This document shows, one piece after another, positions 4,810 through 47,811 of a DNA stretch of 64,000 nucleotides; within the stretch, counting starts at the first letter, position 1; each line of letters begins with the position of its first letter. Source of the stretch: a bacterium. Lineage in GTDB: Bacteria > Myxococcota_A > Bradymonadia > UBA7976 > UBA1532. Made by a program: the position numbers and the translations under genes. The notes under the pieces were generated by a model. It did not search any database and was not told the origin of the DNA. It worked only from the letters and a program-made list of their open reading frames with translations. The stretch covers positions 124,001-188,000 of the forward strand of contig JAUHYW010000004.1 of the NCBI GenBank assembly GCA_030426085.1, read 5' to 3'.

Positions 4810-6185
4810 CGGTCGTCGCTCAGCCGGGTGAGGGTGATGCGGGCGTGCCACCCGCGGGGGCCGAGGTCGTCGAGCACGCCCGCGTGTTCGAGGGCCCGCA
4901 GCGCGGCGTCGCCGTCGAGGTCGCGGACGAGATCGGCGAGGTGGGATGGCATGTCGATCCGCAGCGGCATGCCTTCGAGCCGGATGACATCGGCCCGCCC
5001 CTGGCCGTGCAGTCGGGCGAGCAGAGCGACATGCAGCGCGGCGTCGGCGAAGCCATCGGTGAGTGACGGGGCGATGGTACCCCACCGCAGAGACTCACCC
5101 GGCTCGATGGCTCGAATGGCATCGGCGATGGCTTGCCTCAGCCGGCTCATCGGGTCGTCGGCGATGACATCGATGGGCGCGGCCGTCGGCTCGGGCGGCG
5201 GGGCGTAGACGAAGGGCGCCCGGGCGGCGGCTCGGGCCCGGCGCTCGGTGGTGTGGCGGTCGAGGATCTGGTCGGTGCTGACCCGGGCGGCGATGCGCGG
5301 CCAGTGCACCGCCCGGGCCCGGCCGGTCTCCAGCTCGTCGTCGGTGGCGCTCATCACCGCGTCGCACAGCGCCGAGAGGCTGTAGCCGGCGTCGGTGGTC
5401 TCCAGCCGGCGCAGGCTCCACTCGGCCAGCCGCCGGTGCAGCCCCTCGTGGGCCCGCAGGATGGTCTGCATCGCCCGGTGCAGCCGCACGATGCGCTCGA
5501 AGTGGGTCGAGGCGGTGTCCAGCCGCTGCTCGAGCAGCGCGAGCACCTCGGTGACCCGGTCGAGCTGGGCCCGCACCTCGCGCCGGCTGAACCGCAGGAG
5601 CTGGCGCGGCCGGCCGCTGGCGATGACCTCCCGGGCCCGCTCGGCCTGGGTCTCGAGCTCGGCGAGCAGCATGCCCAGCAGCCGCCCGGTGGTGCGCCCG
5701 TCCCCGTCGACCCGCGCGCCGAAGTGCAGCGCCTCGGCGGCCCGCACCAGCAGGTTGGCCGGGGTCTGGGAGGCGAAGTTGGCCGCCCGCAGCGTCGCCA
5801 GCAGAAACAGCCCCAGCGGGTTGAGCCGGTAGGTGTTGTCCCGGGCCCGCAGCTCGAGCCAGCGGCCGTCGTACAGCGAGCGCACCAGGGCGTCGAGGCG
5901 GTCGGGCTCGATGGCCCGCACCAGCGCCCGGATGCGCTCCTTGGTGAAGCGGCCGTCGGTCTGGGCCAGGGTGAACAGCACCACCAGCTTGAGCAGGGTG
6001 TCGCCGGGGTCGGCCGAAGAGAAGAGGCTGCGCATCAGCGGCGCGATGGGCAGGATGGCCCGGGCCTCGTCCCACTCCTCGATGTGCTCGGGGCGCACGC
6101 CGGGGGCCAGCCCGGCGGGGGCCGATCCGGCCGGGCTCGGATCGGCGAGGTGGGGGTCGGCGGCGGTGGGCCCCGGGGTCGTCAT
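4806..6185 (-). CDS. jetA: JetA-like subunit of a Wadjet system (kleisin role)
   Basis: 459 residues and first of the four-gene set. The first 35 residues are Pro/Ala-rich and probably disordered. Residues of about 60-190 look like winged-helix domains (TLAQTDGRFTKERIRALV, then LGLFLLATLRAANF), the middle is a helical coiled region (about 200-290), and the C-terminus again resembles a wHTH. This is the layout of MksF/JetA kleisins, which close the ring on the JetC ATPase. The stop overlaps the jetB ATG (ATGA). A candidate promoter lies about 50 bases upstream. The function is inferred from layout and neighbours, because the primary sequence of JetA proteins is poorly conserved. Confidence 0.74.
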   Translation of the reverse strand: MTTPGPTAADPHLADPSPAGSAPAGLAPGVRPEHIEEWDEARAILPIAPLMRSLFSSADPGDTLLKLVVLFTLAQTDGRFTKERIRALVRAIEPDRLDALVRSLYDGRWLELRARDNTYRLNPLGLFLLATLRAANFASQTPANLLVRAAEALHFGARVDGDGRTTGRLLGMLLAELETQAERAREVIASGRPRQLLRFSRREVRAQLDRVTEVLALLEQRLDTASTHFERIVRLHRAMQTILRAHEGLHRRLAEWSLRRLETTDAGYSLSALCDAVMSATDDELETGRARAVHWPRIAARVSTDQILDRHTTERRARAAARAPFVYAPPPEPTAAPIDVIADDPMSRLRQAIADAIRAIEPGESLRWGTIAPSLTDGFADAALHVALLARLHGQGRADVIRLEGMPLRIDMPSHLADLVRDLDGDAALRALEHAGVLDDLGPRGWHARITLTRLSDDR

Positions 6186-6239
6186 CGGGGCACTGATCGC
6201 ACGAAATCGGGCGCAGGGCGAGTTCGTATCCCGCCGTCT

Positions 6240-6269
6240 TCTATACGGTTTTTCGTGTTCGGGTGTCGC
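6240..6269 (-). promoter_or_regulatory. Candidate sigma-70-type promoter for jetABCD
   Basis: Read on the minus strand, GCGACA (4 of 6 to the -35 consensus) and TATAGA (4 of 6 to the -10 consensus) are 18 bases apart, in a short AT-richer patch between the sigma factor gene and jetA. The implied start would give a leader of about 45-50 bases. This would allow jetABCD to be transcribed separately from the upstream merR and sigma genes, although read-through is equally possible. Confidence 0.35.
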
Positions 6270-6285
6270 CGCCCGGGCGGGGCGC

Positions 6286-6876
6286 TCAGGCGGCCAGCGC
6301 GCCCCAGCGGGCCTTGTCGCTCTCGGCCTTGAGCCGCAGGCGGGCCCGGTGGAAGCGGCTCTTGAGCGCGGGCAGCGACAGGCCGGTCTCGTCGGAGATG
6401 CTCTGCAGCGACAGCCCGTCGACGAAGCGCCGCACGAACAGCTCCCGGTCCCCGTCGCGCAGGCCCTCGAGGAAGCGGTCGGTGAGCTGGAGCAGCTCGC
6501 GGTCGCTGGCGAGCTTCTCCGGCGGGGGCTCCTTGGCGGCGGCGAGCGGGCTGAAGATCTCGGGGGTCGGGATGAGCCGCTTCTCGCGGCGGTGCTTGAG
6601 CAGCGCGGTGTTGACCACGATGCGGCACAGCCACGAGCCGAAGCGGGCCTCGGAGCGGAACTGGTCGATGCGCCGCAGGACCTGCACGCAGGCCTCCTGG
6701 GTCACGTCCTGGGCCTTGACCGGATCGCGGGTGACCTTCAGCGCGAGGTGATACATCTGTTGGTAGTGCGCGCCGAGCAGGCGGTCGAGCGCGCGCACCT
6801 GACCCGACTGGGCCCGGGCGACGAGGGCCTGCTCCTCTTCGAGGGTCAGCAGCGGCTGGTTGGGCGTGATCATCAT
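6286..6876 (-). CDS. ECF-type RNA polymerase sigma factor
   Basis: 196 residues with only sigma regions 2 and 4. Region 2 (about residues 30-100) shows the helix DPVKAQDVTQEACVQVL and FGSWLCRIVVNTAL. Region 4 (about 135-185) shows a helix-turn-helix around LSLQSISDETGLSLPALKSR. Such factors direct RNA polymerase to a small regulon. Two adjacent ATGs exist; the first, at 6876, has GAGGTG 5 bases upstream. The gene lies 36 bases after the merR gene and 100 bases before jetA on the same strand. No anti-sigma gene is next to it, so how it is held inactive is not visible. Confidence 0.88.
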   Translation of the reverse strand: MMITPNQPLLTLEEEQALVARAQSGQVRALDRLLGAHYQQMYHLALKVTRDPVKAQDVTQEACVQVLRRIDQFRSEARFGSWLCRIVVNTALLKHRREKRLIPTPEIFSPLAAAKEPPPEKLASDRELLQLTDRFLEGLRDGDRELFVRRFVDGLSLQSISDETGLSLPALKSRFHRARLRLKAESDKARWGALAA

Positions 6877-6912
6877 CGGTTCACCTCGTTTTGCCGGGCC
6901 GTCGATCCGGGT

Positions 6913-7425
6913 TCATGGGTCGTCGCCGTCGCCGGCGATGCGCCGGCAGGGGTCGTCCTGCCCGATCGGCGGCTGGGCGGTCAGCCCGGCCACCATGTCG
7001 GGGAAGTCGTCCCCCACCTCTTCGATGCAGCCCTTGCAGCACCGGGGCAGCGGGCTGCGGGGGCAGCCGTGGCACCGCTCCATGTAGCGCAGGCCGGCGT
7101 TGAGGGCCTCGCGCAGCGCCTCGAGCCGCCGCATCTGGGCGTCGATCTCGACCAGCCGGGTGCGATATTCGGAGCGCAGCACCGACATGGCCTTGTCGCC
7201 GTTCTCGGCGGCGCCGATCTCGGCGAGCATGCTCTGGATGTCGTCGAGCGAGAGGCCGATCTCGGAGAGCTTGAGGATCCACCGCAGCCGGACGAGCGCC
7301 GAGGCGCCGTAGAGCCGGAAGCCGCCGGCGCTGCGCGCCTCGGGTACGAGCAGGTCCTTCTCTTCGTAGAGCCGCAGCGCCCGCGCGGACTTGCCGACCA
7401 CGCGGGCGAGCTGCCCGATGGTCAT
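6913..7425 (-). CDS. MerR-family transcriptional regulator with a C-terminal cysteine cluster
   Basis: 170 residues. The N-terminal winged helix is classic MerR: TIGQLARVVGKSARALRLYE, then the FRLY element, followed by a dimerisation helix. The C-terminus holds a cluster of cysteines (118, 121, 129, 130, 133 and 160; CHGC and CCKGC), suggesting a metal or redox-sensing site such as an iron-sulphur cluster. I start it at 7425 (MTIGQ), where MerR proteins normally begin; an in-frame start at 7467 would add 14 residues unlike the family. A palindromic operator sits about 50 bases upstream, so autoregulation is likely. The effector is unknown. Confidence 0.87.
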   Translation of the reverse strand: MTIGQLARVVGKSARALRLYEEKDLLVPEARSAGGFRLYGASALVRLRWILKLSEIGLSLDDIQSMLAEIGAAENGDKAMSVLRSEYRTRLVEIDAQMRRLEALREALNAGLRYMERCHGCPRSPLPRCCKGCIEEVGDDFPDMVAGLTAQPPIGQDDPCRRIAGDGDDP

Positions 7426-7472
7426 CTGACCGTCATCGCTGGCTTTCGTCCGGCTCAATCGCCTCAACCCTT

Positions 7473-7494
7473 ACCTTGACGTCAACGTCAGGGT
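7473..7494. promoter_or_regulatory. MerR-type palindromic operator
   Basis: A 22-base inverted repeat: ACCTTGACGT, two central bases, then ACGTCAGGGT. The arms match at 9 of 10 positions. It lies in the gap directly upstream of the merR start. MerR proteins bind such sites within the -35/-10 spacer of their target promoters. On the minus strand a GGTCAC-like -35 and a TAAGGG-like -10 can be placed on either side, as expected for autoregulation, but neither box is strong. Confidence 0.6.
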
Positions 7495-7643
7495 GACCCT
7501 AGTCGGGGCCCCCCGCAAAGTCAACGGCTCCGTGCGGCAACGGACCGTTGCCGTGTCGCGCCCCTGACGGCGCCGGGGGGGCCGATCTCCGGGCGTGGCG
7601 GGCGGCCGCCGCATGGGGCACGATGGGGGTCGGAGGTGTCCCG

Positions 7644-8960
7644 ATGCGCAGCCGGGTCTGGCTCATCCCGCTCATCGACGCCGCCCGGGGCGCGGCGGGC
7701 CCACCGGCGCCGGCGGGGGGCTTCGAGGGCTGGCTCGACGGGCAGCTCGAGGCCCGGGGCTACGGTCTGGGGTTGCTGGCGGACGGGCTGGCGGGGTCGG
7801 ACGACCCGGCGTTGGCCGACGCGCCGTTCGCCGAGTACGGGCTGCTCAACCACACCGCCCACCGGCTTCAGCTCGGGCTGGCGGCCCGGGGCGGGCCCCG
7901 GGGGCCGGTGGTCGATCACGGGGGGCTGTTCGAGGCGCTGGCCCACGCGCTCGGCTGGCCGAAGGGCGCCGAGCGGGCCCGGGCGCTGGCGGCGGGGCCC
8001 GACGACCGGGGCTTCGTCAAGGCGAGCAACGGGCTGGCGGCCGCGCTGGGCGGTCGGCTGGTGGCCGAGGCGCTGCCCGCCGACCACCCGCTCTACGGCC
8101 ACCCGTTCCATCAGCTCCTGCGGTGGGTCGAGGCCCGGCGCTTCGCCCGGATCGCCCGGGCGCTGGCCGACGGCCCGGCCGAGCCGGCGGCGCTGCACCG
8201 CATCGACGGGCTGGCGGCGACGACCCGCCATCAGGCCATCTCGGCGGCGATCGCGCTCGCGGTGGCCGACGGGGTGATCGACCCGCCCGAGCGGGCGATG
8301 ATCGCCGCGCTGATGAAGGCCGCCCGGCTCGACGCGGCCGAGGTCGCGATGCACCGGGCCGAGTTCGACGACCCGCCGACCCCCGAGGCCGTCGCCGCGC
8401 GGCTGGCCGACCCCACCGCGCGGCGGTTCGTCCTGCAGCTCTTGTTTCTGGCAGCCCACGTCAACGGGCGCTACCACGCCCGCGAGCGGGCGTTCATCGA
8501 GCGGCTGGCGGCGGCGAGCGGGGCCGACGCGGCGGCGCTCGACGCCTACGAGGCGGCGGCGGTGGCGGCCTACGCCCGCCGGCCCGATCTGGTCGAGCAG
8601 CTCTCGCTGGGCAAGGCGGTCTCCCGGCTACGGCGCGATCTGGCCGGGCGGCTCGAGCGGGCGGTGCGGCTCAACAGCCGCCGGCTGTGGTCCGAGATCC
8701 AGGAGACCGGCGAGCTGATGCAGCTCCTCGCGGCGGCCGCCCATCGCCCGCTGACCCCCGAGGAGGAGGCGGCGGTCAAGGCTCAGCTCGTCGACGTGTG
8801 CAAGGCGATCCCCGCGCTGGCGCTGTTCGCGGTGCCCGGCGGCTCGCTGCTGCTGCCGCTGATCATCCGCCACCTGCCCATCGACCTGCGGCCGTCGAAC
8901 TTCACCGACGAGGCCCGCCCGGGGGCCGGCGAGGGGGGCGCGGCGCCGGGCGACACCTGA
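7644..8960 (+). CDS. TerB-like and LETM1-like domain protein
   Basis: 438 residues, apparently soluble. Residues of about 197-295 show two TerB-like segments (AIALAVADGVIDPPERAMI and LFLAAHVNGRYHARERAFI), a helical fold first seen in tellurite-resistance proteins. Residues 353-420 resemble the LETM1 ribosome-binding-like domain (LTPEEEAAVKAQLVDVCKAI, then FAVPGGSLLLPLIIRHLP). The N-terminal 190 residues match nothing I recognise. The start at 7644 is chosen for the GGAGGT ribosome site 6 bases upstream; an in-frame start at 7548 has none. It heads a probable four-gene operon. The function is unknown; membrane-associated stress roles are known for relatives of each domain. Confidence 0.75.
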   Translation: MRSRVWLIPLIDAARGAAGPPAPAGGFEGWLDGQLEARGYGLGLLADGLAGSDDPALADAPFAEYGLLNHTAHRLQLGLAARGGPRGPVVDHGGLFEALAHALGWPKGAERARALAAGPDDRGFVKASNGLAAALGGRLVAEALPADHPLYGHPFHQLLRWVEARRFARIARALADGPAEPAALHRIDGLAATTRHQAISAAIALAVADGVIDPPERAMIAALMKAARLDAAEVAMHRAEFDDPPTPEAVAARLADPTARRFVLQLLFLAAHVNGRYHARERAFIERLAAASGADAAALDAYEAAAVAAYARRPDLVEQLSLGKAVSRLRRDLAGRLERAVRLNSRRLWSEIQETGELMQLLAAAAHRPLTPEEEAAVKAQLVDVCKAIPALALFAVPGGSLLLPLIIRHLPIDLRPSNFTDEARPGAGEGGAAPGDT

Positions 8961-8972
8961 AGGGCGTGCACC

Positions 8973-9000
8973 TTGTGGCGAAGACCGAGTGGGGTACACA
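8973..9000 (+). promoter_or_regulatory. Possible promoter inside the TerB-LETM1 cassette
   Basis: TTGTGG and TACACA are separated by 16 bases in the only sizeable gap of the cassette (8961-9030). This could give the three downstream genes their own transcript. The boxes are weak and the call is tentative. Confidence 0.25.
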
Positions 9001-9030
9001 ATCGCTCCGAACCCCCGCCGGAGTCGCCCG

Positions 9031-9636
9031 ATGTCCGACGAGAATCACCGCCCCGACGCCGATCAGACGCTCGCCAGCCGCCCCGCCGCCAAGGCCTCCG
9101 CCGAAGCCGGGGACACCGTGCGGGTGGCCGTGCCCGAGGACGACGCGGAGGGGATCGAGGAGACGCCCGCCGCTGGGACCCGGGTGCCGGCGGCCCGCCC
9201 CGCGCGCTCGGCGCAGCGCCGACCGGCCGAGCCGGCGAAGTCCCGGGGCTGGTTCTCGGACGACGAGAAGAAGACGAAGCGCGCGGCCGCCGCCGACGAG
9301 GCCGACGAGCCGGGCTGGCTCGACCGCCTCTCGCAGACGCTGACCGATCTGGCGGCCGACATCAGCAGCATCACCGTGCGCACCTACGCCGCCGAGGACG
9401 TCGGCGCGGCGGTCGAGAACCACCGCGAGATCGGCGAGGTGGGCGAGCTGCGGGCCTGGACCCGCATCGCCATCGACGGCGACACCGACGTCTGCGTGCC
9501 GCTGCGCAAGGGCAAGGTCGACCAGGCGCTGTGGAGCCTGCACCAGTCGGTCGTCGAGCAGGCCCAGACCCACCGCTCCGAGATGATCAAGGCGCTCATC
9601 GACTCGGTCTCGGGGCTGTGGACCACCAAGAAGTGA
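9031..9636 (+). CDS. Hypothetical protein, paralogous to the product at 10292-10621
   Basis: 201 residues. The first 95 are acidic, Ala/Pro/Arg-rich and probably disordered. Residues of about 97-190 form a compact domain sharing a clear pattern with the last gene of the cassette: LS..L.DL...SS.T, then an I..DGDT.V..P segment at 147-157, then HQ..VEQA at 171-178. I do not recognise this family. The start at 9031 has GGAG 7 bases upstream; an in-frame start at 8989 would add 14 residues. It ends in a GTGA overlap with the next gene, so the two are probably translated together. Confidence 0.7.
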   Translation: MSDENHRPDADQTLASRPAAKASAEAGDTVRVAVPEDDAEGIEETPAAGTRVPAARPARSAQRRPAEPAKSRGWFSDDEKKTKRAAAADEADEPGWLDRLSQTLTDLAADISSITVRTYAAEDVGAAVENHREIGEVGELRAWTRIAIDGDTDVCVPLRKGKVDQALWSLHQSVVEQAQTHRSEMIKALIDSVSGLWTTKK

Positions 9637-10295
9637 GCCCCGACGCCGACCCGCTCGATCGGGTGCTCGGGCCGCTCGACCGCCCGCCCACCGATGGCGA
9701 GCTGCTGGCCCTCGAGCGGCGGGCCGCCGAGGTCGACGCCCGGCTGGCCGAGGCCGCGGCCCGCATCGACGACGCGATCACCGCCGCGCTGCGCCCGGCC
9801 AGCCGGGGCGGCGCGCCGCATCGCGACCCGGCCGACGCGATGCTGGTGGCCGATCTGCGCCGGGTGCGGGTCGGCTCGCGGGGCGTCGACGCCCAGGCGC
9901 AGCGGCTCGTCGAGCAGATCCAGGCGCGGCTTCAGGGCATGCTCGACGCGGTGCGCTACGCGGCCCGCATCGAGACCGCCGCCGGCGGCCGGGTGTGGGC
10001 GGCGACGGCCATCGGCTGGGGCGGCGACAGCGCCAGCGTCGTCGACCCGGCCCTCGACCCCGAGACGCTGGCCGTGCACCGGCGGCGGGTCGCGGTGAGC
10101 ATCGCCCAGCGACGGGGCCGGGTGCGCTTCGTCGCCCTGGTGCTCGGCGGCGCGGCCCGCATCGCCGCGGCCTTCGCCGGCGGGGGCCTCGGCGCCCTGC
10201 CGGCCCTCTATCGCTACGTCGAGCAGGTGCTCGACGCGTTCGACACCCTGGCGGACGCCGAGGCGGCCGCCCTGCCCGCTGGAGCAGACCCATGA
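9633..10295 (+). CDS. Hypothetical protein with a hydrophobic C-terminal helix
   Basis: 220 residues from a GTG start that overlaps the preceding stop (GTGA). Residues 1-150 are predicted helical and rich in Arg/Ala/Asp (VDARLAEAAARIDDAITAAL). Near residues 165-195 there is a Gly/Ala-rich hydrophobic stretch (FVALVLGGAARIAAAFAGGG) that could be a membrane or membrane-associating helix. No family is recognised. Its position between two paralogous small proteins, overlapped by 4 nt at both ends, suggests the three act together, perhaps with the TerB/LETM1 protein. Confidence 0.66.
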   Translation: MSPDADPLDRVLGPLDRPPTDGELLALERRAAEVDARLAEAAARIDDAITAALRPASRGGAPHRDPADAMLVADLRRVRVGSRGVDAQAQRLVEQIQARLQGMLDAVRYAARIETAAGGRVWAATAIGWGGDSASVVDPALDPETLAVHRRRVAVSIAQRRGRVRFVALVLGGAARIAAAFAGGGLGALPALYRYVEQVLDAFDTLADAEAAALPAGADP

Positions 10296-40752: not shown

Positions 40753-42003
40753 TCAGCCGGTCAGCGTCGCCCGGGCGAGCGCCACGAGGCCCGCGGTGAT
40801 GGCGGCGGTGATCGGCACGGTCACGATCCAGCTCGCCAGGATGGCCCGCAGCACCCGGATGTTGATCGCGGCGATGCCCCGGCCGAAGCCGACCCCGATC
40901 ACCGCCCCGACCATGATGTGGGTGGTGGAGACCGGCAGCCCCAGCTTGCTGCCCACCAGGATGATCGCCGCCGCGCTGAAGGCCGCCGCGCAGCCGCTGG
41001 ACGCGGTCAGCTCGGTGATGTCCCGGCCGACGGTGGCCATGACCTTGTAGCCGTAGCTCGCCAGCCCGATGACCAGCCCCACGACCCCGACCATCAGCAC
41101 CGCCGGGGGCACCGCGACCTGCTCGGTGATGCCCACCCGCAGCCCGTGGAAGACCACCGCCACCGGGCCGACGGCGTTGGCGATGTCGTTGCTGCCGTGG
41201 GCGAAGGCCAGGGTGCACGCGGCGAGCACCTGCAAGCCGTGGAAGATGCGCTCGGTGCGCTGGAGCCGGGCGGGGTGGGCCTCGGGGGCCTCGGCGGCGG
41301 CCCGACGGAAGAGCGGGCGGGCGACGGCGGTGGCCAGCGCGCCGAGCACCAGCGCGAGGCCGCCGGCGGCGTACAGCGGCAGGTCGAAGCGCAGCGGGCC
41401 CTCGCCCCGGAACAGCACCGCCAGCGCCAGGAACGCGGTGATGCCCCCGGCCAGCGCCGGGCCCAGGCGCTGGATGCGGGCCAGGGGGTCGGCGGCCCCC
41501 AGGATGCGGCGGCGGATGAAGGCGAAGCTCTGGTAGCCGAGCCACACCGCGAACAGCGGCGAGAGCACCCAGGCGATGCCGACCTCGGTCAGCCGGGCAG
41601 TGTCGAGGGCGTCCCAGCCGCCGACCGCGGCCCCGGCCCCGACGACCGCGCCGACGATGCAGTGGGTGGTCGAGACCGGCCAGCCCATGTAGCTGGCGAA
41701 GTTGAGCCACAGCGCGGACGCGATGAGGCAGGCGGTCATGCTCGCCGAGAGGAGCAACGCGTCGCCGCCGAAGGCGTCGAGCCCGACGAGCCCCTGGCTG
41801 ATGGTCGCGGTGACCCGCCCCCCGGCCAGGAAGGCCCCGGCCGCCTCGAAGACCATCGCCAGCACCAGCGCCCGCCGCAGCGAGAGCGCGCCCGAGCCCA
41901 CCGAGGTGCCCATGGCGTTGGCGACGTCGTTGGCCCCGATGTTCCAGGCGAGGTAGAGCCCGGACAGCACCGCGAGGGCCATGATCAGCGAAGTGGCGTC
42001 CAT
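40753..42003 (-). CDS. PiT-family inorganic phosphate permease
   Basis: 416 residues with about ten membrane helices. Both inverted PiT signature repeats are visible: GANDVANAMGTSVGSG (about 23-38) and, in the second half, GSNDIANAVGPVA (about 245-257). The family takes up phosphate, often as a metal-phosphate complex, driven by protons or sodium. It is preceded 80 bases upstream by a DUF47 gene, the usual partner, which supports the assignment. Confidence 0.93.
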   Translation of the reverse strand: MDATSLIMALAVLSGLYLAWNIGANDVANAMGTSVGSGALSLRRALVLAMVFEAAGAFLAGGRVTATISQGLVGLDAFGGDALLLSASMTACLIASALWLNFASYMGWPVSTTHCIVGAVVGAGAAVGGWDALDTARLTEVGIAWVLSPLFAVWLGYQSFAFIRRRILGAADPLARIQRLGPALAGGITAFLALAVLFRGEGPLRFDLPLYAAGGLALVLGALATAVARPLFRRAAAEAPEAHPARLQRTERIFHGLQVLAACTLAFAHGSNDIANAVGPVAVVFHGLRVGITEQVAVPPAVLMVGVVGLVIGLASYGYKVMATVGRDITELTASSGCAAAFSAAAIILVGSKLGLPVSTTHIMVGAVIGVGFGRGIAAINIRVLRAILASWIVTVPITAAITAGLVALARATLTG

Positions 42004-42083
42004 GCCGCCTTATGCGTCTCCGGTCGGCCGCCGGGCGCTCCACCCGCCGGCCGACGTCCGGTGCCCGAGCGTCGGGCGAGCCC

Positions 42084-42758
42084 TCATCGGGCGAGGAACA
42101 GCCGCACCCGGTCGCCGACGTTCTCGGCGTGGTTGGCCATGTCACCCAGCTTGTTGAGCACCTTGGTCCACATGAAGATGGCGACCGGCGGCAGCTCGTC
42201 CTCCAGCGAGAACAGGACCTTGGCGCTCTGATCCTGCAGCTTGTCGGCCTCGTGCTCCTGGCGGCCCAGGTCGCGGATGAGGGTCCGGGTGCGGTCGGCC
42301 GAGGTGCCGCCGAACCCGCTCGACAGCAGCCCTTGCACCTCGTCGACCACCTGCCCCGCGATGCGCACGGTCAGCATCACCGCGTCGAGGTAGCGCCGCA
42401 GCAGCTCGGCCATCGGCCGGGGCACGGTCAGCGGGCGCAGGGTCAACAGCACGCCCACGTCCTCGGCGCAGTCGGCGATGGCGTCGAGCTGGCCGACGAG
42501 CTGCAACAGATCGCGGCGGTCGACGGGCAGGAAGAGGCTGCCGGGCAGCTTGTCCCGCAGCTCGGTCTTGGCCGCGTCGGCCTCGGCTTCGAGCCGGCTG
42601 ATGCGCTTGGCGATCACCCGCACCTGCGCTTGATCGTCGGCGATGAGCGCGTCGATGAGCGGGGGCACCTCGTCGGCGCAGGTCTGCACCGCCTGCATGA
42701 GCCCGCCGAGGGCCGGGAAGGGGTTGCGCCCGAAGAGTCGTCCGATGGGGATGCGCAT
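42084..42758 (-). CDS. DUF47/PhoU-like PiT accessory protein
   Basis: 224 residues, all helical, with PhoU-like three-helix bundles and acidic metal-binding patches (EAEADAAKTELRDKLPGSLF, DAIADCAEDV, ENVGDRVRLFLAR). Proteins of this family are encoded beside PiT permeases and are thought to control phosphate uptake. The start at 42758 is supported by GAG a few bases upstream and by the family-typical opening (GRLFGRNPFPALGGLM). A TATACA -10-like box lies on its strand at 42793-42798. Confidence 0.87.
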   Translation of the reverse strand: MRIPIGRLFGRNPFPALGGLMQAVQTCADEVPPLIDALIADDQAQVRVIAKRISRLEAEADAAKTELRDKLPGSLFLPVDRRDLLQLVGQLDAIADCAEDVGVLLTLRPLTVPRPMAELLRRYLDAVMLTVRIAGQVVDEVQGLLSSGFGGTSADRTRTLIRDLGRQEHEADKLQDQSAKVLFSLEDELPPVAIFMWTKVLNKLGDMANHAENVGDRVRLFLAR

Positions 42759-42838
42759 GGGGCTCTCGTCTGCCGGTTCGCGTCGCGATCGCTGTATAGC
42801 CGATCCCGCCGACGCCCCGACAGAGGGTCCGCCCGCCG

Positions 42839-43126
42839 TCAGCCGCCGGCCCCGCCCGCGCCGCCGGCTCCGCCCGCGTCGCCCCCGTCGGCGCTGCCGT
42901 CGCCCGCCTGCCCCAGGTCCTCGCCGGCGTCGACCGCCGGGCCGCCGCCCTGGCCGCCTTCGCCGCCCTGGCCCCCGAGGTCGAAGCCGCTGTCGAAGAA
43001 CCCGCCCTTGGGGTTGCCGATGACCAGATCGTCGGGGCAGCCCCACAGCACCGGGGTGGTGCTCAGCGCGGTCGCGATCAGCAGCCGCCGGGTGCGCCTG
43101 CGGCGGGGACTCCTGCGATAACCCAT
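42839..43126 (-). CDS. Short lipoprotein-like peptide with NPKG motif (paralogue of 44091-44498)
   Basis: 95 residues. A basic N-terminus (seven Arg among the first 14 residues) and the hydrophobic stretch LLIATALSTTPVLWGC end in a lipobox-like LWGC (C30). Just after it comes GNPKGGFFDSGFD (about 37-49), then a low-complexity Gly/Ala/Asp tail. The N-terminal 25 residues and the NPKG core are shared with the peptide at 44091, although the two genes lie on opposite sides of the diiron gene. The conserved core beside a diiron enzyme suggests a modified peptide or leader-core substrate (inference). Confidence 0.6.
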   Translation of the reverse strand: MGYRRSPRRRRTRRLLIATALSTTPVLWGCPDDLVIGNPKGGFFDSGFDLGGQGGEGGQGGGPAVDAGEDLGQAGDGSADGGDAGGAGGAGGAGG

Positions 43127-43220
43127 GCTCTCCCCCTCGCTCCGATCCGCGGTGTGCGGGTGAGATCGTCGCCCGCTCGGAGTATCGTATCGGCGAACCG
43201 GCCCTCGGGGGAACGCTCAG

Positions 43221-44075
43221 TTGAAGCAGCTCTTCGAACCGACCTGGCTCGAGGGCCCGATGGCCCACCACTACCGCCGCCTTCGACCGGGCGTCGAGGA
43301 GATGCCCTGGGGCAGCCTCGACCCCGCCGGGCTGCCGCCGAAGCTCGTCGAGCGGGCCCGCCTCTCGTGGACCGAGGCGGCCTACAACGAGTACTGCACC
43401 GCCGCCGCCTTCGCCGAGCTGATGGCGCTGCTGCTGGCGGTCAACGCCCCGATCAACCTCGTCGCGCTGTGCGGCGACTTCATGGCCGACGAGATGCTGC
43501 ACGTCGAGCTGACCAGCCGGCTGGCGACGCTGCTCGGCGGCGGGGCGACCTATCGGGTCGACTTCGAGCGGCTGACGCCCCCCTCCGATCCGACGCTGTC
43601 GACGCTGGCCCGGTGCAACGAGGCGGTGGTGCGGCTGTGCTGCGTCGGCGAGAGCTTCAGCCTGCCGATGCTGGCCGGCTGCCTGCGCTCGTCGACCCAC
43701 CCGCTGGTGCAGGCGGTGCTGTCCCGCATCGTCAAGGACGAGGCGCTGCACGGCCGGCTGGGCTTCGAGTACCTCGAGTGGGTCGACCCGCTGCTCGACG
43801 ACGCCGAGCGGGACCGGTTGGCGGGCGTCGCCGTCGACACCCTCGAGACGCTCGCCCCGCTGTGGCAGCGGCTGCGCAGCGAGGTGCAGGACGGCTTCAC
43901 CTCCGAGGGCTACGCCATCGCCGACGTGCGCCGGCTCGGCTGGATGCTGTCCCACGAGTACCGCGCCGCGGCCCACGCGGCGGTGCGGGAGGACGTCGTC
44001 GCGCCGCTGGCCGAGTTCGGCATCCACATCCCCGACGCCGCGGTCGAGCGCCTCGCGCCGGCCGCCCACCGCTGA
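43221..44075 (+). CDS. Ferritin-like diiron protein, possible peptide oxygenase
   Basis: 284 residues, helical. The four-helix diiron pattern is complete: a first-helix glutamate (E57 or E66), E91-x-x-H94 (DEMLHVE), E144 (VGESF) and E174-x-x-H177 (DEALHGR). Such centres activate oxygen for hydroxylation, desaturation or N-oxidation. The exact family is not clear to me. The TTG start at 43221 has GGGGGAA 8 bases upstream; an ATG at 43260 is the alternative. The stop is 15 bases before the NPKG peptide gene at 44091, and the other NPKG gene is divergent across 94 bases that contain a TATCGT box (43183). The peptides are its likely substrates (inference). Confidence 0.72.
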   Translation: MKQLFEPTWLEGPMAHHYRRLRPGVEEMPWGSLDPAGLPPKLVERARLSWTEAAYNEYCTAAAFAELMALLLAVNAPINLVALCGDFMADEMLHVELTSRLATLLGGGATYRVDFERLTPPSDPTLSTLARCNEAVVRLCCVGESFSLPMLAGCLRSSTHPLVQAVLSRIVKDEALHGRLGFEYLEWVDPLLDDAERDRLAGVAVDTLETLAPLWQRLRSEVQDGFTSEGYAIADVRRLGWMLSHEYRAAAHAAVREDVVAPLAEFGIHIPDAAVERLAPAAHR

Positions 44076-44090
44076 GACGAGGAGGGCCCC

Positions 44091-44498
44091 ATGGCCTATC
44101 GCCGCGACCGTAGAGGGCGCCGGACGACCCGGCTGCTGATCGCGACCGCCTTGAGCATCACCCCGGTCATCCACGGCTGCGCCGCCGAAGAGCCGGACGA
44201 CGACCGCAGCGCCGAGATCGACGGGGGCAACCCCAAGGGCAGCTTCTACGACGAGGGGCTCGTCGACGCCGAGCCGGACATGCCCGTCGTCATCAGCAAC
44301 CCCAAAGGCAGCCTGTACGACGAGGGGCTGATCGACCCCGACGCCGATCCGGCGGACGGGGCCGGCGGCAGCGACGGCGCGCCGACCGACGGGGGCGCCG
44401 ATGGGGACGTGGACGGCGGGGATGGCGGCCCGGACGCGGGCCCCGACGACGGGACCGGCGCCGGCGGGGCGGGGGGCGCGGGCGGCGGTGGCGGTTGA
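44091..44498 (+). CDS. Short lipoprotein-like peptide with two NPKG motifs
   Basis: 135 residues. The N-terminus matches the peptide at 42839 (YRR, then RLLIATALS.TPV) and ends in IHGC (C30). Two copies of the core follow: GNPKGSFYDEGLVD (about 46-59) and SNPKGSLYDEGLID (about 69-82). The rest is an Asp/Gly/Ala low-complexity tail. GAGGAGGG lies 5 bases upstream, and the gene is 15 bases after the diiron gene, so they form an operon. The duplicated core is what one expects of a multi-core modified peptide, but no other maturation or export gene is adjacent. Confidence 0.62.
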   Translation: MAYRRDRRGRRTTRLLIATALSITPVIHGCAAEEPDDDRSAEIDGGNPKGSFYDEGLVDAEPDMPVVISNPKGSLYDEGLIDPDADPADGAGGSDGAPTDGGADGDVDGGDGGPDAGPDDGTGAGGAGGAGGGGG

Positions 44499-44504
44499 CG
44501 GCGC

Positions 44505-45524
44505 TCAGCCGAGCCGCTCGACCCCCGCGGCGACGGTGAGCCGGAACACCGGGTGCCCCGCCGCCTCGAGCGCCTTCGCCGCGGCGGCCTCGGCGGCCGG
44601 CTCGGCGGCGTAGATCCAGGCCAGATCACCGCCCCCGGCGCCGGTGGGCTTGACCCCCGCCCCGTGGCGCGCCGCCGCCCGGTGCAGCCCCCGGTGCAGC
44701 GCGGTGCACAGCTCGACCTTCGCGTCCCGCCCCAGCCCGACGATCGCCCGCCGGCCGGCCTCGGCCGCCGCCGCCAGCCCCGCCCGGTCGTCGGCCTGCC
44801 AGGCGTCGATGCCCGCCCGGGCCGCGAAGCCCAGCTCGGCGATGCGTCGGCGGTGCCCGGCCGGGTCGCGGCGGGCCCACTCGGCGACCTGCCCCACCAG
44901 CGCCACCGTGCTCGCCGAGTCGCCGCTCCACACCGCCCACAGCGGCGTATCGGGCGCGCGCAGCGGGGTGGCGTGCCCCGCGCCGTCGCCGGCGGACAGG
45001 GCGTCGAGCGGCGCCTTGGCCGGGTCGTCGAGCCAGCGGTAGGCCAGCGCGCCACCGAAGCTCGACGCGGCGACGTCGGCCCCGCTGCCCGTGCCCTGGA
45101 CCGCCCGATGCACCTCCTGCGCCAGCCGATAGATCGCGGCCGGGTCGGGCTGCGCTTCGGCCCGCAGCGCCGCCGCCAGGGCCACGGTCGTCGCGGCGCT
45201 GCTGCCCAGGCCCAGCTTGCGCCGGCCGTCGGCGGTGTCGGCGTAGAGCGCGTCGCTGTCGAGGCGATAGCGGCCGGGCGGGGGGTCGGCGAGGCGGGCA
45301 AGCAGCGCGCGGACCAGGGGCAGGGGGGTCGCGCCGCGGTCGACGGGCCAGTCGACCGCGCCGTGCTGGCCGGCGTCGACCCGCAGCCCGGCGTCGGGGG
45401 TGACCGCGCAGCGCACGTCCCGGTCGACGGCGACCACCAGGGCCGGCGCGCCGTCGAGCACGGCGTACTCTCCGAGCAGGATGAGCTTGCCCGGCGCCCG
45501 CCACACCGTCGGCTGCGCGCTCAC
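44505..45524 (-). CDS. Phosphomevalonate kinase (GHMP family)
   Basis: 339 residues. GHMP-kinase motifs are in order: APGKLILLGEYAVLDG near the N-terminus, the ATP-binding KLGLGSSAATT around residue 100, and GVKPTGAGGGDLAW near 290. GEYAVLDG fits phosphomevalonate kinase better than mevalonate kinase (GEHAVVYG type). It adds a second phosphate to mevalonate 5-phosphate on the way to isoprenoids. It begins with GTG and overlaps the mvaD-like stop (GTGA), which supports the pathway assignment. Mevalonate kinase is still a possible alternative. Confidence 0.8.
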   Translation of the reverse strand: MSAQPTVWRAPGKLILLGEYAVLDGAPALVVAVDRDVRCAVTPDAGLRVDAGQHGAVDWPVDRGATPLPLVRALLARLADPPPGRYRLDSDALYADTADGRRKLGLGSSAATTVALAAALRAEAQPDPAAIYRLAQEVHRAVQGTGSGADVAASSFGGALAYRWLDDPAKAPLDALSAGDGAGHATPLRAPDTPLWAVWSGDSASTVALVGQVAEWARRDPAGHRRRIAELGFAARAGIDAWQADDRAGLAAAAEAGRRAIVGLGRDAKVELCTALHRGLHRAAARHGAGVKPTGAGGGDLAWIYAAEPAAEAAAAKALEAAGHPVFRLTVAAGVERLG

Positions 45525-46495
45525 GGGCCTTCGCCGACGATCCGGGCCCCGGGCCCCGGGCGGCCCTCGAGGATGTCGTCGGGCGGCACCAGCGCGCTCA
45601 GCGTCTCCCGCACCTGGGGCGCGTCGGCGGCGGCGCACAGCACCTTGACGTGGGGCCCGGCGTCCATCGTGTACCACGCGCCGACCCCCTGGGCCCGCAG
45701 GTCCTCGATGGCGTCGGCCACGTCCAGCGTACGCCCCCGCCAGTAGCGCAGCGGCGGGTCGGCGGCCAGCATGCAGGCGTGCATCCGGCAGGTGGAGCGC
45801 TCCATCACCGCCCCCAGCAGCGGCAGGTCACGGGCCGCGATCGCCGCCCGGGCCGCCTCCAGATCGGCGGGGTGCTCAGCGACCCACGGGGCGTAGTAGG
45901 GGCTGGTGGCCTTGGTGTGGGCCATGCCCTGCCGGCTGAGCGTCTTCTTGGGGCCCTTCGTCAGCCGGGCGACCAGCATCGCCAGATCCCAGCCGCCCTC
46001 GGGGCAGAGCTGATGGACCCGGCCCCGCTCCTTGTCCAGCTCGACGAGGCCGCCGAGCAGCGAGCGGGGGGCCGAGCCCGAGCCTTTGCGCACCAGATCG
46101 AGGAAGCGGGGGTCGTCGACCGCGGCGGCCGGATCGAGCCCGGCGGCGGCCCACGCGGCGGTGGCCAGCGCGGCGGTGCCGCTGGCCGAGCTGGCCAGCC
46201 CCGAGGCGGTGGGCACCCCGTTGCGGCTGCTCACCGCGGCCCGGTGCAGCACCCCGGCGATGGCCCGGACGCCGTCGAGCACCTCGACCACCCGGGCGTC
46301 GTCCCGGGGCAGCCCGTCGAGCACGAAGCGGTCCCGCTCCAGGGCCGGGTCGAAGCGCACCGTCGTGCGGGTGACCAGATCGGACAGCGTCAGCGAGATG
46401 CTGCCCACGTCGGGCAGGTTGGCGGCCGGGTCGCGCTTGCCCCAGTACTTGACCAGCGCGATGTTGATGCCCGCCTCGGCGGTGGCCCGGCGCAT
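45521..46495 (-). CDS. mvaD: Diphosphomevalonate decarboxylase
   Basis: 324 residues. The family hallmarks are present: NIALVKYWGKR near residues 11-21, NGVPTASGLASSASG in the ATP-binding region, and KGSGSAPRSLLGGLVE downstream. The enzyme uses ATP to convert mevalonate diphosphate to isopentenyl diphosphate. Its ATG shares one base with the stop of the aminopeptidase gene, and its stop overlaps the next kinase gene, so three genes are translated as a unit. An HMG-CoA reductase, HMG-CoA synthase or idi gene is not visible in the window. Confidence 0.91.
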   Translation of the reverse strand: MRRATAEAGINIALVKYWGKRDPAANLPDVGSISLTLSDLVTRTTVRFDPALERDRFVLDGLPRDDARVVEVLDGVRAIAGVLHRAAVSSRNGVPTASGLASSASGTAALATAAWAAAGLDPAAAVDDPRFLDLVRKGSGSAPRSLLGGLVELDKERGRVHQLCPEGGWDLAMLVARLTKGPKKTLSRQGMAHTKATSPYYAPWVAEHPADLEAARAAIAARDLPLLGAVMERSTCRMHACMLAADPPLRYWRGRTLDVADAIEDLRAQGVGAWYTMDAGPHVKVLCAAADAPQVRETLSALVPPDDILEGRPGPGARIVGEGP

Positions 46496-47811
46496 CAGAC
46501 CTCGAGCGGCGCGCTGCCGACGAGGGCTTCGATCTCGTCGATCTCCTTGGGGATCCCGGCGGTCAGCACCTCGGGATCGCCGGCGGTCACCCGCACGTCG
46601 TCCTCGATGCGGATGCCGATGCCCCGCCACTCGGGGCCGACGGTCTCGTCGTCGGGGGCGATGTAGATGCCCGGCTCGACGGTCAGCACCATGTCCGGCT
46701 CGAGCATGCGCGAGGTGCCCCGCAGGTAGTACGGGCCGACGTCGTGCACGTCCATGCCCAGCCAGTGGCTGGTGCGGTGCATGTAGAACCGCTTGAAGGT
46801 CTCGTTCTCGATGATCGCGGTCACGTCGCCCTCGAGCAGCCCCAGCTCGACGAGCCCCTCGACGAGCAGCTTGACCGTCAGGTCGTGCACCGACTCGAAG
46901 GTGCGCCCCGGCCGGCAGTGGTCGATGGCCGCCTTCTGCACCTCGAGCACCAGGGCGTAGATCGCCCGCTGCTCTTTGGAGAACGTGCCGTTGACCGGCC
47001 AGGTGCGGGTGACGTCGGCGGCGTGGTAGTCGGCCTCGCAGCCGGCGTCGATCAACACCAGCTCGCCGTCCTGCATCTCCCGCTCGCCGGCCCGGTAGTG
47101 CAGCACGCAGGCGTTGGGCCCGCTGCCGACGATGCTGGGGTAGGCGTGGCGCGGCGAGCCGCGCACGAGCCACTCGTACTCCATCGCCGCCTTGAGCTGA
47201 AACTCGTGCAGCCCGGGGCGGGTGGCGGCCATCGCCCGGCGGTGCCCCTGCGCGGTGAGCGCCGCCGCCTTGCGCATCGCGGTCAGGGCGGCCTCGTCCT
47301 TGATCAGCCGCTGCTCGTCGAGCAGCGGCTCGTGGTCGAGGATGTCCCCGGGGGTGTCGATGCCCTTCTTGCGGATGCGCCGGGCCTCGCGCAGCGCGGT
47401 GAGCACCGCCCGGTCGTCCGCCTCGCGCCCCTGACGGCCGAGGCCGTGATACAGCCGGGTCGCGCCGTGCAGGTAGCCCGGCAGCCGCTCGGCCAGCTCG
47501 TCGATGGGGAACGCCTTGTCGACGCCGAGCGCCTCGGGCGCCTCGTCGACGCCGAGCCGGTGGCCGTCCCAGATCTCGCGCTCGGGGTCGCGGACCCGCA
47601 GGAACAGCACGACCCGATCACCCGGATCGCGGTGCGGCGCGATGACCAGGGCCGCCTCGGGCTCCTCGAAGCCGGTCAGGTAATAGAAGTCGGAGTCCTG
47701 ACGGTAGTCGTTGAGCACGTCGTTGTTGCGGAGCGTCTCGGGGGCGGCGAAGAACACCGCGACGGCGTCCCGCATCCGCTTCATGAGTCGCTGACGGCGC
47801 TCGGCATGCAT
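46495..47811 (-). CDS. Xaa-Pro aminopeptidase (M24B, PepP-like)
   Basis: 438 residues, normal length. An N-terminal AMP_N domain (about 1-165) precedes the pita-bread metallopeptidase domain, with the metal ligands in DAGCEADYHAADVTRTW (two Asp), SHWLGMDVHDVG (His), TVEPGIY (Glu) and IRIEDDV (Glu). It removes the first residue of peptides with proline second. It heads the operon with the two mevalonate genes, an arrangement without an obvious metabolic link. GGAGAG lies about 9 bases before the ATG at 47811. Confidence 0.92.
   Translation of the reverse strand: MHAERRQRLMKRMRDAVAVFFAAPETLRNNDVLNDYRQDSDFYYLTGFEEPEAALVIAPHRDPGDRVVLFLRVRDPEREIWDGHRLGVDEAPEALGVDKAFPIDELAERLPGYLHGATRLYHGLGRQGREADDRAVLTALREARRIRKKGIDTPGDILDHEPLLDEQRLIKDEAALTAMRKAAALTAQGHRRAMAATRPGLHEFQLKAAMEYEWLVRGSPRHAYPSIVGSGPNACVLHYRAGEREMQDGELVLIDAGCEADYHAADVTRTWPVNGTFSKEQRAIYALVLEVQKAAIDHCRPGRTFESVHDLTVKLLVEGLVELGLLEGDVTAIIENETFKRFYMHRTSHWLGMDVHDVGPYYLRGTSRMLEPDMVLTVEPGIYIAPDDETVGPEWRGIGIRIEDDVRVTAGDPEVLTAGIPKEIDEIEALVGSAPLEV

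Follow-up and report, generated by a model that had tools for sequence, protein, structure and literature searches.

Three adjacent genes in the 64,000-nucleotide stretch of bacterial DNA analysed here (the window) probably belong to a RiPP-like, more precisely DAG-RiPP-like, family: a diiron oxygenase would oxidise short peptide cores in the cytoplasm, and the precursors would then be exported and mostly lipidated. This reading rests on the pairing of the genes, the conservation of the cores on unrelated scaffolds, the co-variation of core and enzyme, the invariant metal ligands and the predicted oxygenase fold. The features of the locus are as follows.

42839..43126, minus strand: peptide 1, an ORF of 95 aa with a basic leader containing RRLLIATALS, a lipobox-like ...VLWGC, one NPKG core and a Gly/Asp-rich tail; leader and core are common to peptide 2 and to NPKG peptides elsewhere.
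42987..43015, minus strand: core of peptide 1, NPKGGFFDSG, from the pattern match and the consensus of 20 core copies.
43127..43220, no strand: 94-nt gap between the divergent peptide 1 and diiron genes, from the gene positions.
43221..44075, plus strand: ferritin-like diiron oxygenase-type protein of 284 aa with a TTG start and no apparent signal peptide, assigned from its ligands, AF2 model, fold matches and a sub-threshold AurF match.
44091..44498, plus strand: peptide 2, an ORF of 135 aa with a basic leader containing TRLLIATALS, a lipobox-like ...VIHGC, two NPKG cores and a Gly/Asp-rich tail; relatives lie beside homologous enzymes.
44229..44257, plus strand: core 1 of peptide 2, NPKGSFYDEG, from the pattern match.
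44298..44326, plus strand: core 2 of peptide 2, NPKGSLYDEG, from the pattern match.

A preliminary description of this DNA had reported two short proteins with a common basic leader, a lipobox-like Cys and one versus two NPKG cores on either side of a diiron gene, and both ORFs are present as claimed. Peptide 1 reads MGYRRSPRRRRTRRLLIATALSTTPVLWGC...GNPKGGFFDSG and peptide 2 MAYRRDRRGRRTTRLLIATALSITPVIHGC...GNPKGSFYDEG...SNPKGSLYDEG. Their aligned N-terminal parts are 61% identical and have RLLIATALS and the lipobox-like Cys in common, with unusual residues (His, Trp) at position -2 of the lipoboxes. The ORF positions also agree with the flanking arrangement: peptide 1 is divergent across the 94-nt gap, in which the gene positions make a shared promoter probable, and peptide 2 starts 15 nt past the diiron stop, preceded by GAGGAGG. 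When the window's own 10.1 Mb genome was searched with peptide 1, only peptides 1 and 2 reached a meaningful score. The genes on either side (40753-42759, minus strand, and 44505-46500, minus strand) were assigned by eye to a PitA/DUF47-like phosphate transport pair and to the mevalonate pathway, and have no obvious link to the peptide system.

The complete E, ExxH, E, ExxH ligand set noted earlier for the diiron protein is indeed present, and its residues (E57, E91xxH94, E144, E174xxH177) are invariant in 45/45 aligned homologues, as are W30, W50, P77, D90, G106, G107 and G181. A single AlphaFold (AF2) model of the window protein, built on a three-sequence alignment, is helical and ferritin-like (pLDDT 80.1, pTM 0.80). 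Its fold matches are aldehyde-deformylating oxygenase (ADO, Z 19.8), MMO hydroxylase (MMOH, 19.1), the R2-like ligand-binding oxidase R2lox (18.7) and VlmB (18.1). The four-helix bundle with E, ExxH, E, ExxH that marks the ferritin-like diiron oxygenase/oxidase superfamily is thus found in ligands, model and fold matches alike, and the predicted fold places the protein among O2-activating diiron enzymes rather than iron-storage proteins. ADO, MMOH and R2lox, the best structural matches (Z 18-20), have the six-ligand diiron site in common with it but differ in sequence (12-16% identity), act on other substrates and are without peptide partners. A PDB sequence search gave nothing significant. 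The N-oxygenases AurF, CmlI and VlmB resemble it in predicted fold, ExxH ligand pairs and a weak Pfam match, whereas the substrates of their known members are small molecules. AurF has an additional His ligand (HxxxExxH, a seventh ligand four residues before the last ExxH). Membership of the AurF family (PF11583) was rejected because the window enzyme scores 21.4 bits against a Pfam gathering cut-off of 29.6, and because the column of the extra His holds Ile (36), Leu (7), Met (1) or Val (1) in the 45 homologues. The homologue at locus L093 scores 21.9 bits, and PF11583 did not match that of L112. Diiron enzymes that hydroxylate a residue inside a macromolecule do exist, namely MiaE (tRNA) and deoxyhypusine hydroxylase (eIF5A), but neither is paired with exported precursors and the latter is of another fold.

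We then asked how far the NPKG core recurs. A 29-base degenerate DNA pattern for NPKG-x-[FL]-[FY]-D-x-G matched in 2/379 genomes of a phylum sample, namely the window genome (3 matches) and G279 (2), and 5/5 matches adjoin this diiron gene family; a reversed control pattern matched in none of the listed genomes of that sample. In 84,980 species genomes the same pattern hit 29 stretches, about the number expected from base composition. Of these loci, 27 look like chance matches in unrelated proteins or frames and were discarded; the two with double matches are L093, from a Deltaproteobacteria MAG, and L112, from a Myxococcales MAG and on the same contig as G279. Both carry several short NPKG-core peptides directly upstream of a diiron homologue (59% and 54% identity, respectively). 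Across 569 kb of collected loci, NPKG..[YF] occurs 16 times in six frames, 15 times within about 1.1 kb of a diiron gene and once in an acyl-activating-enzyme-like motif, TSGTTGNPKG. The check named beforehand, co-occurrence of motif and diiron family in other genomes, accordingly came out in favour of the proposal: NPKG peptides lie beside close diiron homologues in eight further loci (L093, L122, L154-L157 and, from a second sample, L204 and L207). A peptide homology search within the class (57 genomes) returned only the window peptides at a meaningful score, which indicates that the core alone is conserved and the scaffold is not. The one core is indeed found on three scaffolds. Besides lipoproteins, these are proteins with a C-terminal membrane helix and no lipobox in the Sorangium-like genomes (about 13 Mb) of L156 and L157, a form repeated in L204, and a kinase-like protein directly upstream of the diiron gene in L207 (281-1480, plus strand), where two NPKG cores lie between a Pfam Pkinase (Ser/Thr kinase) domain and a C-terminal membrane helix.

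The enzyme family reaches further than the motif. Searching the phylum sample with the L112/L122 enzyme gave 55 matches at E<1e-20 in 41/379 genomes. NPKG peptides adjoin all six of the strongest, the window's included, and the neighbours of more distant enzymes (about 40-48% identity) are short exported peptides with other, clade-specific and often repeated cores. In 38/43 loci the peptide is on the same strand and ends at most about 50 nt before the enzyme start or overlaps it, so the divergent and downstream layout of the window is unusual. Under a fixed lipobox rule, a lipoprotein of 50-200 aa lies directly upstream of 24/42 diiron genes, compared with 2/89 other genes of the same loci (p 7e-13); this rule replaced a laxer one for upstream exported ORFs that had given 28/89 false positives among control genes. 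Genes in the fetched loci were called with a simple script. A second sample of 108 genomes from the family of G279 added 21 loci (L201-L221), of which L201, where the enzyme match began only at residue 111, and L213, at a contig end, were left out as uninformative; by inspection, a short exported peptide lies next to the enzyme in 18 of the 19 usable loci. The enzyme is present with no recognisable peptide in L203 and L043. Beside the L043 homologue lie three near-identical tandem transposase-like genes (6425-9810, plus strand; Rpn-type by eye), and the peptide may possibly have been lost there through insertion. No dedicated reductase, protease or exporter was found conserved beside the pair in 45 loci. 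Taken together, pairing and core comparison reveal a ribosomal precursor gene with a conserved core beside the gene of a putative modifying enzyme, the gene arrangement expected of a RiPP, whose core would also have to be modified after translation.

Several neighbourhoods of related proteins were recorded in passing. Distant ferritin-like paralogues are fused to or lie beside Cys-rich lipoproteins at L047 (5168-6646, minus strand), L049 (4965-6542, minus), L050 (5427-6464, minus), L053 (4807-5361, minus) and L054 (5801-6337, plus); these lipoproteins have a segment GRP(L/M/F)xV...RxDW(T/A/G) in common and are possibly part of a second enzyme-substrate family. In L044 a diiron homologue is followed after 40 nt by a lipoprotein (6086-7231, plus strand) that matches the MopE-type copper-binding motif (PF11617) five times, and in L193 a distant diiron homologue has a lipoprotein with repeated VNPxWD-type units downstream of it (5290-5676, plus strand). 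A lipoprotein of 74 aa that ends in KCAWF (L057, 5607-5828, minus strand) was noted in the genome of the window, just downstream of a lipoprotein gene at a ferritin-like match.

Comparison of the cores speaks to the residue that might be attacked. In 20 NPKG cores the linkers vary and N, P, K and G are invariant (20/20), as these residues define the set. Position -1 is G, A or S, +4 mostly Ser, +6 aromatic in 19/20 (Tyr 17, Phe 2), +7 mostly Asp and +9 mostly Gly. The remaining classes, sorted by eye, include GNL(M/L/V/I)xPP or a close variant (16 loci), CGN(V/I) or VGN(V/L) (ten loci), NTK (two) and others, among them VG(D/K)(V/I)A (VGxVA) in L159 and L206. A further repeated class, with CGG(G/H)xCG(T/V/I)(V/I)xMPxD-like units, was seen beside diiron homologues in L208, L209, L210 and L217. 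Mapped on the enzyme tree, core type changes 13 times compared with 27.1 in shuffled labels, and 0/200 shuffles were as low; since near-copies favour this statistic, it is supportive rather than proof. No residue is found in the cores of every clade. The commonest feature across clades is a step from a small residue to Asn, and even this gives way in the VGxVA class, which has Asp, Lys, Arg or Thr in place of the Asn, so the attacked residue cannot be read from conservation. Most sister-clade cores are without an aromatic at the place of NPKG +6, without Asn-Pro and without Lys, which makes Tyr, Phe or Pro unlikely as the general target. Neither a universal Tyr/Phe target nor a universal Asn target fits all core classes, and both were rejected. 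The cross-clade data make Tyr/Phe weaker as a universal target and favour the (G/A/S)-Asn step; in our own ranking the Asn of this step or its backbone comes before the aromatic residue, and this before the Lys in the NPKG clade. The original proposal that the diiron enzyme acts on the NPKG core of an exported lipopeptide is supported in part: the genes are consistently paired, the cores stay constant on unrelated scaffolds, and core and enzyme vary together. The oxidation of Tyr, Phe or Pro that it suggested is hypothetical and unlikely to be general.

A leader motif, (R/K/T)(P)(x)LL, occurs near the N-terminus of 42/53 peptides and of 9/37 control lipoproteins, a small control. At L181 and L185 it comes after the signal peptide, and the L156/L157 peptides have it but no signal peptide at all, which suggests that (R/K/T)xLL may be a recognition element separable from export, even if it resembles signal peptides in composition. 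L207 has no clear copy, so the motif may not be essential. Visual inspection places a lipobox in the window peptides and in most of their relatives, the strict rule in 24/42, and L156, L157, L181 and L185 have none. Judged by these sequences, the system reaches far beyond NPKG, and a lipobox is frequent without being universal.

We propose that the three genes of the window make up a small unit for peptide modification, and that it belongs to a family found across the phylum. The diiron protein, which is without an apparent signal peptide, would meet the unprocessed precursors in the cytoplasm and probably bind the basic-LL leader element ((R/K/T)-x-L-L) together with the core. Its diiron site would use O2 to oxidise each short core, NPKG-S-x-Y-D in the window and other cores in sister clades. 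Export of the modified precursors would follow, with lipid anchoring via the Lgt/Lsp route for those that have a lipobox, and the cell envelope would thus display one to several modified cores on low-complexity stalks. Physical interaction, catalysis, the order of events, lipidation, surface display and a biological role are all what we infer from the comparisons above.

The short lipoproteins might instead be unmodified partners whose core is a docking or scaffold motif, the enzyme oxidising another substrate, whether a lipid, some small molecule or a group that an HTTM membrane protein handles. Binding alone could explain the co-variation of enzyme and core, substrates in the fold family are mostly small molecules, and an HTTM protein is present in some loci. 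We nevertheless consider this unlikely, because the peptides carry export signals and the enzyme has none apparent, so that a lasting partnership would be split between compartments; repeated portable cores, unrelated scaffolds and low-complexity linkers also suit substrates better. A larger part for the HTTM (vitamin K carboxylase-like) protein, acting jointly with the diiron protein and doing the main chemistry on the core, is improbable. HTTM-like neighbours occur in 9/45 loci, all of the GNL clade, and an HTTM protein (PF05090, E 3e-12) adjoins the NPKG locus L122, and in these cases it may add a second step; most loci, the window and L093 included, have no HTTM neighbour that we found, and the only constant partners are diiron protein and peptide.

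Least probable is an ordinary ferritin-like or peroxidase-type iron protein beside unrelated low-complexity lipoproteins that owe their common motif to recent duplication. Such lipoproteins are common in these genomes and the two window peptides are similar in their N-terminal parts, as duplication would leave them. This explanation is already contradicted by the neighbours found in the enzyme search, the NPKG counts and the upstream-lipoprotein control: in distant genomes the same enzyme still has the motif next to it although the remainder of the peptide is not conserved, the pairing is far above control, and the fold matches are oxygenases, not storage ferritins. Modification of the cores by the diiron enzyme thus remains the reading we prefer.

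The nearest precedent in logic are the DAG-RiPPs, RiPP-lipoprotein hybrids (DybA/DybH, NedA/NedBC) in which a short precursor carries an SPII lipoprotein signal; while still in the cytoplasm it is recognised through a short conserved motif and modified by an iron-dependent oxidative enzyme, and lipidation follows (PMC12636315). The motif is portable between proteins and may occur in several copies, as in NedA (PMC12636315). Modification of a short conserved motif before lipidation is also what we propose for the window system. The two differ in enzyme and core: in all characterised DAG-RiPPs the enzyme is an MNIO (TIM barrel, DUF692) and the cores contain Cys (CPxCGxG, EGKCG) (PMC12636315), whereas the window has a ferritin-like diiron protein and neither NPKG nor GNLMPP needs a Cys. 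MNIO/DUF692 gave no Pfam match in the window diiron protein, whose model is helical and ferritin-like, not a TIM barrel. Given these differences in enzyme fold and core chemistry, the window system works like a DAG-RiPP without being a member. In Pfam and NCBIfam the peptides match no family, apart from one GNL peptide with a PEGA-like domain, and we found no description of the diiron-lipopeptide family in the open-access literature, although absence there is not proof; the earlier view that peptides with an NPKG core are an undescribed class is in line with this. To our knowledge the ferritin-like diiron oxygenase fold is not established as a RiPP-modifying enzyme, and the open-access literature yielded no such case. 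Whether the family deserves to be called a new RiPP-like class is, in our estimate, evenly balanced.

If the proposal is true, a new fold would join the enzymes that install oxidations in ribosomal peptides, and the short portable tags that they recognise (NPKG-S-x-Y-D, GNLMPPP) would be useful for genome mining and protein tagging. It would likewise account for a set of uncharacterised lipoproteins from myxobacteria and their relatives, organisms whose outer-membrane lipoproteins have a part in kin discrimination and in exchange between cells. In the phylum that includes the myxobacteria, a system for modifying surface lipopeptides looks widespread and undescribed. We see about an even chance that it represents a phylum-wide class of ribosomal lipopeptides whose clade-specific repeated cores, carried by diverse exported scaffolds with a kinase-like protein among them, are oxidised by ferritin-like diiron oxygenases to give modular decorated envelope proteins.
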